Below, one piece after another: positions 27,254 to 34,153 of a stretch of DNA of 64,000 nt. Origin of the DNA: Aphelidium insulamus (Eukaryota > Aphelidiomycota > Aphelidea > Aphelidiaceae); contig JAZDSV010000002.1 of the NCBI GenBank assembly GCA_036784855.1, positions 16,001 to 80,000 on the forward strand. The letters run 5' to 3'. The position numbers were made by a program, and so were the translations under genes. Below the pieces are notes generated by a model. That model did not search any database, was not told the DNA's origin, and was given only the letters and a program-made list of their open reading frames with translations. Each line of letters begins with the position of its first letter. Position 1 is the stretch's first letter.

Positions 27254-28228
27254 TTAGAATTCAAAGTCACACTGCGCACGCTGGAACACGTAGTCGTGTC
27301 CATTAACGTTGGCGACACCGTCCTTCAGCACACACTTCCACTTGTTCTTGGTTCGCGACACCTTTTCCCACTGGCAGAGCATTCGGTTCGCAGTCTCCTG
27401 GTCGGCGGCATCATCGCCGTCCTCATCCTCGTCTTCGTCGTCCAAATCGGAGCCGAGCTGGTCGTCGGCGTCTGGCGCGGCACTTTGCTGCTTCTGCTTG
27501 GCGTCTGCGGCCGACTATAGTGTTAGAGAAAACGCCACGAACTATCACAGTCGTACACATAAGCGCAGCATCCAAATATGCATATATAATATTTGCCCAA
27601 TACCTGAGTAATATCACCGGCTTCGTCTTCATCGTCGTCATCATCATCTACGTTCTCATCGTCTGCTCCGTCATCAAAGTTGCCATCTAGCTGCCGGATT
27701 GTTGCGGGCGGGGATTGCTGCTGCTGCGTCGATGTGGGTGGCTGGTGAGCAAACTGGCAGTAAATACTAGTTGTTGACACATTACGTAGTCTATAGGTAA
27801 TACACACCGACTGAGTAGCAGTGGCCCCGCCGTACAATTGATGCGGTATTGACGAGACAAATGGATGTAGAAGTGGGTTTTGCGCGGTGTACAGCACGTC
27901 GTCATCGTCGGGAGCGTGCAGTAGAAAGTCGGCCGGATTCAGTCCACCATTCTCGTGCGACAGGACACGCGATGCGGCCAGCTTGTGCAGCCAAATCTTT
28001 GCACACATGGCATCTCAGTCATGTGGCTGTGAGCATGGGGGTGCGCGCGGCACTAACCGTTTTCAGGTCCACCAGCACCGACTCGTCAATGCCAGCGTTC
28101 ACAAACTCGCTCTGCACCTTGTCGGCCACGTCATCGATTACAGCGCGGTATATGGCGGTAGTCTGCGCGCGATAATGTCAGGCACTGGCTAGGTTACGCG
28201 CGCCCATATGCCCGCTTACCGTGGCCAT
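27254..28228 (-). CDS. GTF2A1: TFIIA large subunit (alpha/beta)
   Basis: Five exons (28228-28220, 28162-28058, 27996-27808, 27753-27604, 27514-27254) encode 237 residues, all GT-AG. The N-terminal four-helix part has IYRAVIDDVADKVQSEFVNA and VLVDLKT, as in TFIIA alpha. The middle is Gln- and Asp/Glu-rich. The C-terminal beta-barrel ends with the family signature NKWKCVLKDGVANVNGHDYV followed by FQRAQCDFEF. TFIIA stabilises TBP on the TATA box. The first coding exon is just nine bases (Met-Ala-Thr). In animals this protein is cleaved into alpha and beta chains; I see no obvious cleavage motif here. The linker is much shorter than in animals. Confidence 0.93.
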
Positions 28229-28638
28229 TGACGCAGGCGCTTAAAATCAGCTGATGGTTGCCCGGGCCTTGTCTCAAAAAAAAAGTCCTTATAGTCGCCA
28301 AATCATATTATAAAAGCGCCCGACAACTAATTTACAAAAATGTGCACTTTCTGCCCCGATTGGCCCTCTCCACCTTGACGACCAATCCTCGCTCCTGCCT
28401 GAAATTACGTGACACAAACTTCTGCCGCAGCATAAAAGCCGCGCCTGCCTGAAATTACGTGACACAAACTTCTGCCGCAGCATAAAAGCCGCGCGTCGCA
28501 GCGCTCGCAGTCTTCGTTGAGCACATTTCAGCACTCTGCAAGCCACATTTATAGACTGTGTCGCTTGCCTTTCACGTTTTCACTACACTACATACTGGAA
28601 ACACATCGCGCACTCACTCGCTCACTCTCACGCGCGCC
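28229..28638 (+). promoter_or_regulatory. Promoter region with 50-bp tandem duplication
   Basis: The region between the TFIIA start (-) and the 28639 gene start (+) contains an exact 50-bp tandem duplication (28394-28443 and 28444-28493). Each unit has an E-box/CRE-like TTACGTGAC and a TATA-like CATAAAAG. The second TATA-like site lies about 155 bp upstream of the ATG at 28639. Confidence 0.6.
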
Positions 28639-30331
28639 ATGCCTGCCTTCTTCATCGGCCCTGTCATCATCAACTACGTGTACCCGGACGACTCGGACGC
28701 GCGTGGTTCGCGCTGGATCCGCAGCAATGCCACGGTTTTCGCCGGCACCACGCACCGTAAGCACATTGTGATTGCTGTGACAGTGCCGTGTAACGGTGAC
28801 TGACAGTGTCTCCTGATGCAGCCGTGGACATCATGATGGTGTCGTGGACGGACGTGGATCGCGAGGTGGTTGAACCCATGCCGACGTGCACCTACATCCT
28901 TGAAGGTCGCGTCACCACGCGTTCTTTCATGCTGGTGGAGGCAAGCCGTTTGCTCCCGCTGCATGGCGATCAGCGTACGTTTACTCACACGCATACACGT
29001 GTATACATGCATTCATACTGACACACAAAACTGCAGCGCCGTTCTCGCCGCGTATCTGTGGTGTGGGCGCGTACAACGGCCCCAGCAACACGGCAATCCA
29101 GATCGAAACGCCTCTGTACGCCAACAGCATTAGTGCCACTGTCACGGTACGATATGCTTTGATATATCTCGCAGTCACTGACTGGATACCGTCAGTTCGA
29201 GTGCGCCTACAACGTCACTCAGTATGGCAACATGGTGGTGAAGATGCATCGCCGCTCTGTGTTGTTCTTCAGCGGTACGTGCCCAGTGTTTTACTCTGTG
29301 TAATAACTAATCTGCTGTGCAGGCTGCCTGGGTGATGTTGTTGTTGCGGACAACACGGTGACAACGATCTGCCTCGATCCAACCGACTTCACGTTTGCAT
29401 CTGTCACTGGAGGACGTAATGTGATTGCCGCCGCTACGCCCGGTGTTACGTCGCCCGCTGCCAGCTCGCTGTGGAACTTCCGCCGACCTACGCAACCTGC
29501 GCCACGCGACTCTGACCCGTCTGAATTGTTGGCCCCGGCAGGTTCGTCTCGTGCAACGATTACATCGTCGCCGCTTCCACCAGCTACGCGCCGTGGTACT
29601 GCGGCAAAAGCTGATGCAATGGGAACCCCTGCTGTAACGGCCGAAGCAACCACTGCGGCATCCTCCACGGAACCGCCATTGGGTTTGTCGGCGAACAATG
29701 ACAAATTTTGGCGGACTTGCTCGAGCAGATCGATGCTCATGACAAAGAAGTTGCTGCAGAGGCGGCACGCACTGCCACAGCTACGCGTAAGACGGTAATT
29801 ACGCTGATTGACGATGCCGATGATGCTGACAACAGTGGTGGCGTGGACAATGATGCCGGCTCCAGCACTCAGCATGCCCAGCGTGCGCGCACCGCTGCCG
29901 AGAAGGGCAAGATGCCGTCACATGACTTTGTTGAAATTGTCGACCATCCACGCACTGCGGCCGAGAAGGGCAAGATTCCGGCACGTGACTTTGATGGCAG
30001 CACGCTTTCTGGGGACCCGAATGTCTCGGATGCGCTTCGAAACTTTCACAAAAATGCAGCGCCAAAACAATCAGCGCGTAGCACTGCTGCGGGCAAAGGG
30101 AAGACACCAACACGCAATTCTAATGCTGCTGGCCCAAGTCGTGCAATGTCCATGGCTGAAGCCAGCTGTAGCTCCTCCTCGGCTGACAGTGGTGTTGACA
30201 CACCTGTAATGCCCATTTCGGAAATAGTAACACCCGTCCCTGTTGCCAAGCGCAAACCGGCGCTTGCCGCCATGGGTTCCAGCAAGCAGCGCAAGGCAGC
30301 CACGCCGCGTCCAGAAAATGTGATCTGCTAA
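28639..30331 (+). CDS. Unrecognised multi-exon protein next to Fanzor
   Basis: Exons 28639-28756, 28822-28974, 29037-29146, 29196-29274 and 29323-~29630 join in phase through GT-AG introns. A last exon of about 29730-30331 continues in another frame after an intron I could not place exactly. The N-terminal ~190 residues alternate hydrophobic and polar positions (FFIGPVIINYVYPDD; YILEGRVTTRSFMLV; AIQIETPLYANSISATVTFE), suggesting an all-beta domain. No family is recognised. The C-terminal ~200 residues are low-complexity Ala/Ser/Pro/Lys with repeated AEKGKMP-like and KGKTP units and a basic KRKPA patch, perhaps nuclear. A decayed copy of exon 1 sits at 4761-4905, so this family has been duplicated in the genome. 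Confidence 0.6.
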
Positions 30332-31067
30332 CGCTTCCGGATGAGATCACGTACGCACTTACAATACACAGCAATGCTTCATAGTAAATCAATGCTTCCA
30401 CAACAAAAATCTATTTTTTATGTTGTCTGTGTTGCTAAGCCAGTTCGTGTTTAATGTATAGTATACATTACCATTAAGAATACAGTATATGCTACAGTTG
30501 TATGGGAGGGGACAAAGGATGAATTGGAGGCGTGATTGCACACTGTCTGTGTATCACAAGCTCAATCAGAAAAATCTTCACTAAAATCCGTACAGACGTC
30601 AGTATGTAGTGTGTGCCTATTTGTTTTTGTGATCTGAGGTGTCGTACAGGCGGCGTAGCTCCGATTCGCCAGTTGTTAATTTGTGAATGCCCAATCAGAC
30701 AATTTTTTGTTACACTGGCGGAAAAAGTGGCAATCACTGTCAATTATCAAACTGTGCGCGCACACATTCTAAATTTGTGATCCACATCTCGGTACTGCGG
30801 ATCGCCCATATTACTGCATATTTTCTCCACGCATAACACCAACCGGAGCTAAGGAGCAACAGAGCTACAGTATTGCACAGCACGTTCTGGGCGGCGCTCA
30901 TTGCAGTGCACACATCATAAGGTATGCCAATATCTTCAGTTCTGTGCATCCCAAACTTATGTGCGCAGTTTCATCGCACACCGTTACGGCTACATCTTTC
31001 TCCACAACCAGGATTGTTGGGACAGTGACAACTATTGAGTGGCCACGGGTGGCATAGCTGGTATGTC
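30332..31067. other. Left flank of the Fanzor locus
   Basis: About 735 bp with no gene. A near-palindrome AATGTATAGTATACATT lies at 30457-30473. I looked for a terminal inverted repeat shared with 33663-34150 and found none by eye. A 10-bp word, GCATAACACC, occurs here (about 30833) and on the right side (about 33999) in direct orientation, which may be chance. Confidence 0.4.
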
Positions 31068-33662
31068 ATGCATCAGATGTGTCACCTGATTACTAATATT
31101 CAGCAGCTGGCTGTCCATATGTCACGCAGACACTTGGAGCCAGTGCCTGGACGGTATCAGACAATTAAAACGCGACTCAAAACCATTTTACGCGCGGAAA
31201 ACGCTGAAGTTACTACTACCACAATTCAGCATGCTGTAACACGCGCCAATGGCATAGTGGTGCATGCATATCAATTCTTGAAGCTCTACCTTCTTCAGCT
31301 ATACAATGACGGGGCCGCGTTTCCACACATTGATGAGAATTTCATCATGTCGGTTATTCGAGTTGTTGCAATTCCGCCATTGGTACGGCATCGTCGTCCC
31401 ACAGCTGAGCATCGGGAACAGCTTGCCATGTTGCGCACATTTTACGACCAGCATTTTTGTGAAATTGCACCAGAGCAGAAAGATTATGTCCATCTAACCC
31501 AGGTCATGCAATACCTTGCAAAACAAATGGCAACAATGTACGATAACAACATCAAGAAACACTTTGTTGAATACGTGGAACGTTTTGTCAATGTTGTGTG
31601 GAACAAACATGCCAAAAGAGCCGCCATATATGCCCAGCATCCAGCGGGGCAACACCGAAAAGCTGCCATGCAAATGATGTGTGCGGAGCTGCGGCATGTC
31701 AAGGAAGATCTTCTTAATCCGGGCCGGCAAATGATGTGTGCAGAACAATACCACACATGGGTCCAGATTCAGCGCCTGAGAGTAATGCCACAACGACGAC
31801 TGCGCATGGATAGTGTCTATTATGATATCAAGGCATCACCACAATCTTACTTGCCAGCAATGATATATATGATGGAGGCAGTTGAAGCAAATAAGCTGCG
31901 CATGTTCAACGTGTTTCCGCTGCGCACCAGTATGGTTCCACGGCACATTCTCTTGGACACTACGGCATTGGCACGCATATGCGGGATAAAACAAGGACAA
32001 CATCTCACCCCCACAAGAAAAACACCGAATATGGGAGCAGCACTTAACTTGAACAAGAAGTGCTTCAAGTTGCGACACAATGCCGATGGGCATCTGAAGT
32101 ACAAGTACACATTTGACTATGAGATGCAGACGGATGGGGTAAGCTGCTCGCTGCTAATGCAACCCGTGGTCAGAGATGCTGCTGGTGATGATGGCATAGC
32201 TGTGGCAGCAGTTGAGGCTGGAGATGCAAATGATGCACGAGGCAATCAAGTAGCCAGTGCATGTATAAATGCAGTGGCAAATGAGAATGCCGCAGAGCAA
32301 GTGGCACTGGAGGCTGGCAGCATCAGCAATGATGAGGTAGCACTCCACAATGCTTCACAAGAGGGTGTGGCAGCTGGTGCCAATGATATGCAACGCAGAT
32401 CTGCACGTGGCAGAGGCAGAATGCAGGCAAGGTCACGCTCACCAATGGACATGCCAGCATCTGCACGTGGCAGATCAAGGTCAGTACATGGCATGGTCAC
32501 ACGCAGTCAGGCACAGAGAGGCAGTAGTCATGTGGCAGGCAGCAGTAGACTGGTGCATAGATATGGCGTGGGAGAAGTAGCACCTGGTATAGGCCAAGCA
32601 GCAGATTTTGGTAGACAAAGATCTGGAGACAGAAGTGGTAGACAAAGATCTGGAGACAGACGTGGAGCACACAGAGGTGGAGACAGACATGGAGCACACA
32701 GAGGTGGATACAGACGTGGTGTACATGGAGGTGGAGACAGACATGGTGCACATGGAGCTGAAGATGGACATGTTGGACATGGAGCTGGAGGGCATGAACA
32801 TGTCAGACATGCTGGACAAGTGCATGCTGAACCTGATGCATACATTGATGAAGTGGACAGTGCACCTCTGCGCAACAAAGACATTGTTGGAATTGATCCA
32901 AATATGGGCAACCTGCTGTACTGTGTGAGTGGTGCTGGGCCAGATCAGACCAAGTTTCGATACACTGCCAAGCAGCGCCAACACATGACACGACCAGAAC
33001 ATATGCGCTATCAATTATTGCACAACCTGGTACGCCCAATTGTTGCCGGACATCCAGTGAAGGAGTGGGAGCATGTCCTATCCGCCTACAACTCAAAGAC
33101 ACTCAACTTTGTGCAATTCCAGCAGTATGTGGCTGCCAAGAGTATTTTTGATGCATGGTGTGGCCCACAGTATGCACGCCCCAACAGCTACCGTGAACTG
33201 CGGCGCAAGCAGTTTAGTTTGCGTCAAAAGTCTGAAGCTATTATGCTCAATGGATTCCGGAACAAGTTTGGACCACCTGCTGACACCATTGTTGCCATTG
33301 GTGACTGGGCACAGCACCAGCACAGGCGCTATAAGGAACCCATCAAAGGCAAGGGGCTTCGCACCACGCTTCGCCGAGGTGGCTATATGGTGTACTTGGT
33401 TGATGAGCACCGGACAAGTGTTACGTGCAGTACATGCGGGCACCGACTGGAGAATCCACCACGACCTCCCATTATTGACTGTTGTCGGCCATACCGCACA
33501 ATCCGCGATGATGAATATTGTGTGCGATGGTGTCCAAATTGTGAGCATCCATGGGCACGTGACAGGAATGCTGCCACCAACATATATATTGCAGCACTCA
33601 GCGCAATACACAATGGTGCACGGCCGGTTCATCTACAGCATGGTGCACATGCAAACCAATAA
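31068..33662 (+). CDS. Fanzor (eukaryotic TnpB-like RNA-guided endonuclease)
   Basis: An intronless ORF of 864 residues from Met at 31068; Met at 31119 is an alternative start. Fanzors are eukaryotic relatives of IS200/605 TnpB that use a guide RNA to cut DNA with a RuvC nuclease. The N-terminal helical part has the family block AVTRANGIVVHAYQFLKLYL. RuvC-I is VGIDPNMGNLLYC with Asp610. IVAIGDWAQ, which precedes the finger in this family, is present. The relocated RuvC-II Glu is probably Glu780 in VDEHRTS. The zinc finger has CSTC and CPNC pairs, and RuvC-III is RDRNAATNI with Asp832. TDGVSCSLLM (ending near residue 364) normally lies close to RuvC-I; here about 240 low-complexity residues intervene. 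All catalytic and zinc residues I can identify are intact, so the protein looks active. Neighbouring host genes have many introns and this gene has none. Confidence 0.92.
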   Translation: MHQMCHLITNIQQLAVHMSRRHLEPVPGRYQTIKTRLKTILRAENAEVTTTTIQHAVTRANGIVVHAYQFLKLYLLQLYNDGAAFPHIDENFIMSVIRVVAIPPLVRHRRPTAEHREQLAMLRTFYDQHFCEIAPEQKDYVHLTQVMQYLAKQMATMYDNNIKKHFVEYVERFVNVVWNKHAKRAAIYAQHPAGQHRKAAMQMMCAELRHVKEDLLNPGRQMMCAEQYHTWVQIQRLRVMPQRRLRMDSVYYDIKASPQSYLPAMIYMMEAVEANKLRMFNVFPLRTSMVPRHILLDTTALARICGIKQGQHLTPTRKTPNMGAALNLNKKCFKLRHNADGHLKYKYTFDYEMQTDGVSCSLLMQPVVRDAAGDDGIAVAAVEAGDANDARGNQVASACINAVANENAAEQVALEAGSISNDEVALHNASQEGVAAGANDMQRRSARGRGRMQARSRSPMDMPASARGRSRSVHGMVTRSQAQRGSSHVAGSSRLVHRYGVGEVAPGIGQAADFGRQRSGDRSGRQRSGDRRGAHRGGDRHGAHRGGYRRGVHGGGDRHGAHGAEDGHVGHGAGGHEHVRHAGQVHAEPDAYIDEVDSAPLRNKDIVGIDPNMGNLLYCVSGAGPDQTKFRYTAKQRQHMTRPEHMRYQLLHNLVRPIVAGHPVKEWEHVLSAYNSKTLNFVQFQQYVAAKSIFDAWCGPQYARPNSYRELRRKQFSLRQKSEAIMLNGFRNKFGPPADTIVAIGDWAQHQHRRYKEPIKGKGLRTTLRRGGYMVYLVDEHRTSVTCSTCGHRLENPPRPPIIDCCRPYRTIRDDEYCVRWCPNCEHPWARDRNAATNIYIAALSAIHNGARPVHLQHGAHANQ
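32610..32850 (+). repeat. 27-bp tandem repeats inside Fanzor
   Basis: About eight degenerate 27-bp units encode 9-residue repeats of the type GRQRSGDRS, GRQRSGDRR, GAHRGGDRH, GAHRGGYRR, GVHGGGDRH and so on. The repeats are rich in Gly, Arg and His and lie just upstream of RuvC-I. The preceding 32160-32600 segment encodes Ala/Asn/Gly-rich and then Arg/Ser-rich low-complexity sequence, so the whole insert looks disordered. Confidence 0.85.
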
Positions 33663-34153
33663 GGGATTATTGGAGGCCAGACGAGGGCCAACTCTTACCG
33701 TTGTTTCAACTAGTAAATATACAAAGGGTGTCAAGTTATTTAATGTGTCATTTAGACAGTATCTAAATTGTATATGTCTTTTTCTTCGGCACCAGCAAAG
33801 TCAAGACTGGTTGGAAGTCATGCTGGCGTGCATAATTCTTTTCTCTTTATCCCATACGCCCACTCCACTACTTTCATAGCGCTCATATGTACTAAGTATG
33901 TACATTGCTCGGTGCTTGCCTTCCAAATATTTTTTTTCAACTTTCTCAAGTGGCTCTGCATACCATATTACGATATTGCGACACTGCATTATTGCATGCA
34001 TAACACCCTGAAAGCTGCCAACAACCCAAGCCCCTAGCTGGCAACCCTAATGCGTATCGGTTACACACGCTGGCGGCCGAAACACACAGTCGACACACAG
34101 TGGGCGGACGCAGTTCATCTCTCCCGTAGCCCGCCATCAAACAGGCTGTGCAT
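33663..34153. other. Right flank of the Fanzor locus, candidate guide-RNA region
   Basis: About 490 bp between the Fanzor stop and the RhoGEF start. No coding gene is convincing. In characterised Fanzor loci the guide (omega-like) RNA is transcribed from the 3' end of the ORF and the adjacent noncoding sequence, so 33663 to roughly 34000 is where I would look. That is inference; I cannot fold or compare it here. Confidence 0.35.

Follow-up and report, generated by a model that had tools for sequence, protein, structure and literature searches.

Fanzor1 genes, which encode eukaryotic relatives of CRISPR Cas12, have been described within several kinds of transposons. Those that Bao and Jurka describe from Helitrons belong to the Helitron2 type (PMC3627910), and in Mariner, IS4 and Sola2 Fanzor elements they reported shared 5' parts combined with differing 3' parts (PMC3627910; this and the other papers cited are drawn on in excerpt). 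In 2023 the biological role of Fanzor cleavage was described as unknown (PMC10432273). The locus considered here lies in a 64,000-nucleotide stretch of Aphelidium insulamus contig JAZDSV010000002.1 (the window, meaning the whole stretch analysed), where a Fanzor1 gene occupies positions 31068-33662. This gene is the 3' half of a repeat, and it is likely to be the 3' module of a two-gene, Helitron-like and probably non-autonomous element. The first-pass annotation of the window had described the gene; the 5.4-kb element, its ends, its partner gene and the swapping of modules between subfamilies go beyond that description.

The Fanzor1 gene and the element that carries it

The open reading frame (ORF) runs uninterrupted for 864 codons on the plus strand. 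A homology search returned PpFz1 at E 2.6e-29 and SpuFz1 at E 1.5e-25, values that exclude chance similarity, and the protein is nearer to Fanzor1 than to Fanzor2 or TnpB. Fanzor1 proteins are defined by a D-X(125-275)-[TS][TS]-XX-C4 zinc finger-X-RD motif (PMC3627910), which is present here starting at D610. Their RuvC-II glutamate, Ealt, precedes the zinc finger by six residues (PMC10711439), and six residues separate E780 from C787; their WED domain carries a TDG motif (PMC10711439), found here as T355-D356-G357. Across an alignment of 56 rows (the query and 55 of the 119 homologues found), the TDG, D610, E780, D832, C787, C790 and C822 are invariant, and C825 is absent from the invariant or nearly invariant residues. 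The Fanzor identity proposed at first pass is supported by sequence, fold and motif tests, and the catalytic residues and the CSTC/CPNC finger were all found as claimed. The same holds for the lack of introns, since an uninterrupted frame needs none; the upstream gene of the element does have introns, so their absence alone is no marker of the element. A giant-virus origin was also considered; one relative, at 32% identity, is present in IMG/VR.

31068..33662, plus strand: Fanzor1 ORF, 864 amino acids; alternative start Met19 at 31122
32895..32897, plus strand: D610, RuvC-I, in VGIDPNMGN (translation, alignment)
33405..33407, plus strand: E780, relocated RuvC-II glutamate, in VDEHRTS, ahead of the zinc finger
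33426..33542, plus strand: C4 zinc finger C787/C790/C822/C825 (CSTC at 787, CPNC at 822)
33561..33563, plus strand: D832, RuvC-III, in RDRNAATN (translation, alignment)

That the ORF belongs to a repeat emerged from DNA searches of the host genome. Sibling copies (named here by contig) on C118, C140, C115 and C96 have main matches with 98.8-99.4% identity to the window, and C12b is 88% identical. Wherever their contigs extend far enough the siblings have the window's ends, the left being set by C118, C140 and C96 and the right by C118, C140 and C115, which places the exact termini at 28303 (TCATATTATAAAAG...) and 33713 (...CAACTAG). A lone-gene reading was rejected, since the repeat extends beyond the ORF by some 2.8 kb on the upstream side and some 50 bp on the downstream side.

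The base ahead of the 5' TC is A in nine of the ten copies with this terminus (one of them, C98, outside the Fanzor loci) and T in C129. On the right, the base after CTAG is T in all 18 ends that could be read, with C95 and C96 cut off, C117 not read, and C164a and C151, whose flanks are identical, counted as one insertion; these ends were read without requiring T after CTAG, and a pattern requiring it (and C in subfamily B, described below) gave the same outcome. No inverted repeats were seen at the ends on inspection, and terminal inverted repeat (TIR) transposons such as Mariner and MuDR were rejected on that ground. Helitron1-type elements have 5'-TC and CTAG-3' ends and an A|T target (PMC4778049), and the TC starts and CTAG ends found here agree with the pattern of 5'-TC and CTRR-3' without TIRs.

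28303..33713, plus strand: whole Helitron-like Fanzor element (TC...CTAG), 5411 bp, ends from sibling copies
28303..28320, plus strand: 5' terminus TCATATTATAAAAGCGCC, preceded by a host A at 28302
28390..28494, plus strand: 50-bp subterminal tandem duplication, 2.1 copies (Tandem Repeats Finder)
28639..30331, plus strand: upstream partner gene, intron-containing (splice reading)
30395..30410, plus strand: switch point, where the common 5' module ends and the subfamily-specific 3' module starts
33656..33713, plus strand: 3' terminal hairpins and CTAG end (DNA fold z -2.56), probably also the 3' part of an omega RNA scaffold
33714..33735, plus strand: host flank T-A... (CTAG-T readings), by analogy with SpuFz1 (PMC10432273) the expected guide source if omega RNA runs beyond the element end

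Movement of such an element can be outlined as follows, with the mobilising enzyme, the omega RNA and the nuclease activity and its role all putative. A Rep/helicase acting in trans would move the element as single-stranded DNA, transfer would terminate at the 3' CTAG, and the element would go in between an A and a T. Fanzor, loaded with an omega RNA whose transcription continues past the 3' end into host sequence, would cut the matching site beside its target-adjacent motif (TAM), which would help the element to persist or to copy itself, as proposed for TnpB.

By our own splice reading the partner gene has exons at 28639-28756, 28822-28974, 29037-29146, 29196-29274 and from 29323, separated by introns of 48-65 bp. 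Its protein has no Pfam match, its best match among PDB sequences is an antibody chain at E 0.53, and no homologue at E up to 1 was found among 1858 scored candidates of 5.8 billion proteins, a database in which intron-bearing genes such as this may be poorly represented. At 16 of the 21 Fanzor loci the partner is matched no more than about 5 kb upstream of Fanzor and in the same orientation. Among the remaining five, contig ends cut off C115, C12b and C151, and C152 and C108b have no partner match. At an A-run near 29703, four subfamily A copies are one base shorter than six B/C copies, a difference that by the same reading shifts the 3' frame of the gene. Relatives of the partner also occur without a listed Fanzor match (C89:130k, C46:8k, C94:92.6k, C53, C6, C11, C54, C150:226.9k, C156 and C160), perhaps as a wider element family lacking Fanzor.

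On its left side the window element ends upstream of a TFIIA alpha/beta gene (PF03153, 8.3e-13) on the opposite strand, 74 bp from the start codon of that gene (28228-28303, counted by hand on the sequence), and the insertion may affect that gene's promoter.

Module exchange and insertion sites

The genome contains at least 21 Fanzor loci (52 of 71 candidates scored), and 20 of these can be sorted by their Fanzor and 3' end into three subfamilies: A with six members, including the window, B with six and C with eight, C117 being unassigned. Fanzor amino acid identity across subfamilies is 40.5-43.3%. In a 63-row tree of one Fanzor per subfamily and 60 of the 119 homologues (those of at least 600 aa), the three form one clade on long branches with support 100/100, to be read with the tool's long-branch warning and with the collection of homologues by a subfamily A query in mind.

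The 5' halves are another matter. Nine of the 14 B/C copies align with the window's 5' half, their main matches having 88-97% DNA identity and one C1 segment 80%; C108a matches weakly (73% over 240 bp and 91% over 110 bp, or 67% in another search), and C152, C151, C38 and C108b show no match in the stretches examined. Similarity between A and B/C ceases beyond about 30395-30410. Similar 5' halves joined to divergent 3' halves mean that the halves have been exchanged. Helitrons are able to gain new 3' ends by read-through (PMC4778049), which by analogy offers a route for the exchange.

Insertion sites were compared in the nine copies with both flanks, starting at the base after CTAG. The longest prefixes shared by right and left flanks measure 3, 3, 3, 4, 5, 6, 6, 11 and 12 bp; among mismatched flank pairs, 5 of 206 reach 6 bp or more and none reaches 8. 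The 11- and 12-bp direct repeats belong to C164a and C149, both of which lack the 5' terminus, and full-length copies have no clear direct repeat. Older solo 3'-end matches on C97 and C82 gave no clear junction.

The base after CTAG-T differs between subfamilies. In subfamily A it is A at four of the five ends and G at the remaining one, that of the error-rich C12b. All seven readable subfamily C ends have A, and all six subfamily B ends, five of them independent, have C. In the window's host sequence AT is followed by A in 23.3% of cases and by C in 22.7%, which gives chance probabilities of 3.7e-5 for seven of seven A and 6.0e-4 for five of five C; the association of A or C with subfamily has a Fisher p of 2.3e-4 with C12b dropped. 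The numbers behind these statistics are small, and independence is assumed. Since the left repeat copy of the truncated elements carries the motif too (ATC in C164a, ATA in C149), it is part of the target in both. As the third base follows the subfamily, the insertion motif goes with the 3' module and not with the common 5' module.

The TAM of PpFz1 is 5'-ATN (PMC11423790), and by analogy A|TA and A|TC are proposed as TAMs of the Fanzors; the rival to this proposal is that a mobilising transposase reads the 3' end. A fuller scheme, which we put forward tentatively and think rather unlikely to hold as a whole, is that Fanzor sets where elements persist. ATA (A, C) or ATC (B) would be a TAM spanning the junction, with A from the left flank and T plus A or C from the right, and a module swap would re-address the transposon. 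Guided cutting of the empty site by Fanzor would then select or drive TAM-matched, one-ended Helitron-like insertions, leaving direct repeats at truncated copies.

Mobilization, frame integrity and the linker insertion

Several observations weigh against a Helitron-like element that carries a functional nuclease. A profile search of the genome for the Rep domain (PF14214) gave no match, and its control was silent, so absence is not established. Folding of one copy per subfamily gave a strong subterminal hairpin in B (z -5.45, ending 12 nt ahead of the element end) and weaker 3' structures in A (z -2.56) and C (z -1.58), and seven of nine testable copies have no direct repeat beyond 6 bp. An element of some other TIR-less type (Crypton-like, or single-strand IS200/IS605-like), its ends merely resembling TC...CTAG, is unlikely. 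The result of the Rep search would suit such an element, as would direct repeats at truncated copies, which are non-canonical for Helitrons, and a base after CTAG-T that is nearly constant within subfamilies. Yet TC/CTAG ends with an A|T target and a subterminal hairpin are the Helitron1 signature (PMC4778049), and 5'-truncated Chlamydomonas Fanzor-Helitrons have target-site duplications (TSDs) of about 7-19 bp (PMC3627910).

A profile search for PIF1 gave 21 matches in the genome, several in long multi-copy ORFs. These were considered as the element's autonomous Helitron and set aside, as none of the loci read is tied to the element. The PIF1-like matches lie on C165, C162, C10, C63, C154, C32, C124, C22, C1, C97 and C150, several in long open frames; in two stretches that were read the helicase lies towards the C-terminus, and the roughly 500 preceding residues have no convincing Pfam family. 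These stretches perhaps encode the replicase of another mobile element. A second PIF1-type gene is present in at least two copies (C3:17650 and C18:12166) with flanking ORFs in common, the 5' part of C18 being different.

Other points against a functional nuclease concern reading frames, and what is said of the frame of any single copy, the window's included, is provisional because it depends on the assembly. The annotation had called the window gene intact. Its frame is indeed open, yet in comparison with the siblings some 12 residues around TPTRKTPNMGAAL come from a shifted register, and a Trp that is near-invariant among homologues is missing from this patch.

32008..32045, plus strand: out-of-register patch with loss of the near-invariant Trp (comparison with sibling copies)

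Relative to C118, C140, C115 and C96 the window gains one base and then loses one between about 32008 and 32045, and C12b, itself rich in errors, departs from the window at the same two positions; C140 reads the identical 12 residues by way of an extra base of its own upstream. Residues 310-318 of the AlphaFold model have a predicted local distance difference test score (pLDDT) under 50. Either a genuine compensated frameshift or an error of assembly may account for the patch. The window copy may be a working programmable nuclease, as had been suggested, but the patch weakens that case. In the assembly, several frames or internal stops break up the Fanzor gene in all five siblings.

These interruptions, and the patch in the window copy, would suit a real Fanzor1 that has become a decayed passenger, non-functional in this genome, on an element that moves by other means. 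That alternative seems to us doubtful, though it is not slight. The frame difference near 31317 is common to C118, C115 and C96, apparently also to C12b, which points away from read or assembly error. Catalytic residues have changed elsewhere: among the three B/C Fanzors whose active sites were read, C1 has Asn for the third catalytic Asp and C108a has Asn for the first, and C86b retains D, E and D spread over two frames. The ratio of nonsynonymous to synonymous substitution rates (dN/dS), computed against one reference copy per subfamily, reaches 1.43 in subfamily B (0.26-1.43; five copies, six segments); in A it is 0-0.58 on tiny counts of at most six changes per pair (four copies).

Against decay, BLAST gap openings are about as numerous as mismatches between the window and four of its siblings (15/17, 16/16, 17/18 and 15/15), and C12b, a copy at a contig end, shows 130 gap openings over 2.5 kb, which together make assembly error a live possibility; that point is weakened by the private differences of the copies, whose counts tilt further towards substitutions. 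Furthermore, dN/dS in subfamily C is 0.21-0.44 (five copies, six segments, first 430 codons), the C1 Fanzor is open over 653 aa, and Asn at the third catalytic position is natural and active in GtFz1 (PMC11423790). Both ends of contig C12 are gap-rich against the element, with 130 and 53 gap openings, a pattern that resembles uncorrected read error more than decay.

The atypical architecture noticed at first pass is borne out. Some 210 residues lying between WED and RuvC bring the protein to 864 aa, compared with 477-706 aa in the 119 homologues.

32208..32867, plus strand: WED-RuvC linker with Gly/Ala/Arg-rich insertion, residues 381-600
32609..32790, plus strand: 27-bp tandem array coding GDRHGAHRG-type repeats (Tandem Repeats Finder)

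Residues 381-600 include 37 Gly, 35 Ala, 29 Arg and 16 His among 220, with 29 basic and 25 acidic residues, and residues 411-587 are predicted to be disordered (AlphaFold pLDDT under 50). A reading in which this stretch is an intron left unspliced, or an artefact of annotation, and in which maturation yields an ordinary Fanzor1 protein of about 650 aa, is quite improbable. The shorter homologues, the absence of the insertion from the subfamily B and C Fanzors read, and a donor-like GTAAGC at 32139 would all suit an intron. That donor, however, falls within a TDGVSCS stretch whose TDG is invariant, the introns read in the upstream gene measure just 48-65 bp, and the insertion has no in-frame stop over 220 codons, an openness retained by 1 of 5000 first-order simulated stretches. 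Fanzor1 proteins begin DNA unwinding with a loop between WED and RuvC (PMC11423790), and the insertion coincides in position with that site. Its composition would fit an RGG-like nucleic-acid-binding segment, and the Arg-rich disordered linker might sit at the unwinding loop as an extra nucleic-acid-binding tail.

Relation to known Fanzor elements

Among the papers listed on Fanzor, alone or with Helitrons, transposons, fungi and TAM, no title or abstract opening points to this element or to a Fanzor-dependent insertion motif. What the locus adds is the occurrence, within a single genome, of three Fanzor types on one common 5' module. Their insertion motifs vary with the Fanzor type and agree with the kind of TAM used by the solved relative that matches best, and the preferred insertion site seems to shift from one Fanzor to another. 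What had been a loose parallel to TnpB becomes a prediction, that sister elements would encode ATA-TAM and ATC-TAM enzymes, and this has a testable bearing on Fanzor's biological role. The protein is also an example of a Fanzor1 whose long disordered linker lies where these proteins start unwinding DNA.

As a protein, the closest solved comparison is PpFz1 from Parasitella parasitica (9cf0), which has an extra FRI domain inside RuvC that binds cyclophilin, whereas the insertion described here is disordered and lies between WED and RuvC-I. As an element, the SPu-1 transposon that carries SpuFz1 in Spizellomyces punctatus has 33-bp TIRs and putative TA TSDs (PMC3627910), unlike the window element with its lack of visible TIRs and of a regular TSD. 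Helibat/Helraiser shares the 5'-TC/CTAG-3' ends and A|T target, and has a 3' hairpin 11 nt from the end and 3' read-through capture (PMC4778049); it encodes RepHel, with no Fanzor mentioned in the excerpted account (PMC4778049), whereas the window element carries a Fanzor.

The combination of a common 5' part with differing, Fanzor-bearing 3' parts recalls the Sola2, Mariner and IS4 Fanzor1 chimeras (DFa, PPa, PGv, ESv; PMC3627910). The common 5' part of those chimeras encodes a transposase, lost in some families, while that of the window element encodes an orphan protein, and the type of transposon differs. The Chlamydomonas elements CRe-1, -2 and -3 are similar in that a Fanzor1 gene lies in a non-autonomous Helitron with 5'-truncated copies bearing direct repeats (PMC3627910). 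They insert after TTTT and have Helitron2 ends and a multi-exon Fanzor (PMC3627910); the Aphelidium element, by contrast, has Helitron1-type TC/CTAG ends, an A|T target, an intronless Fanzor and a partner gene.
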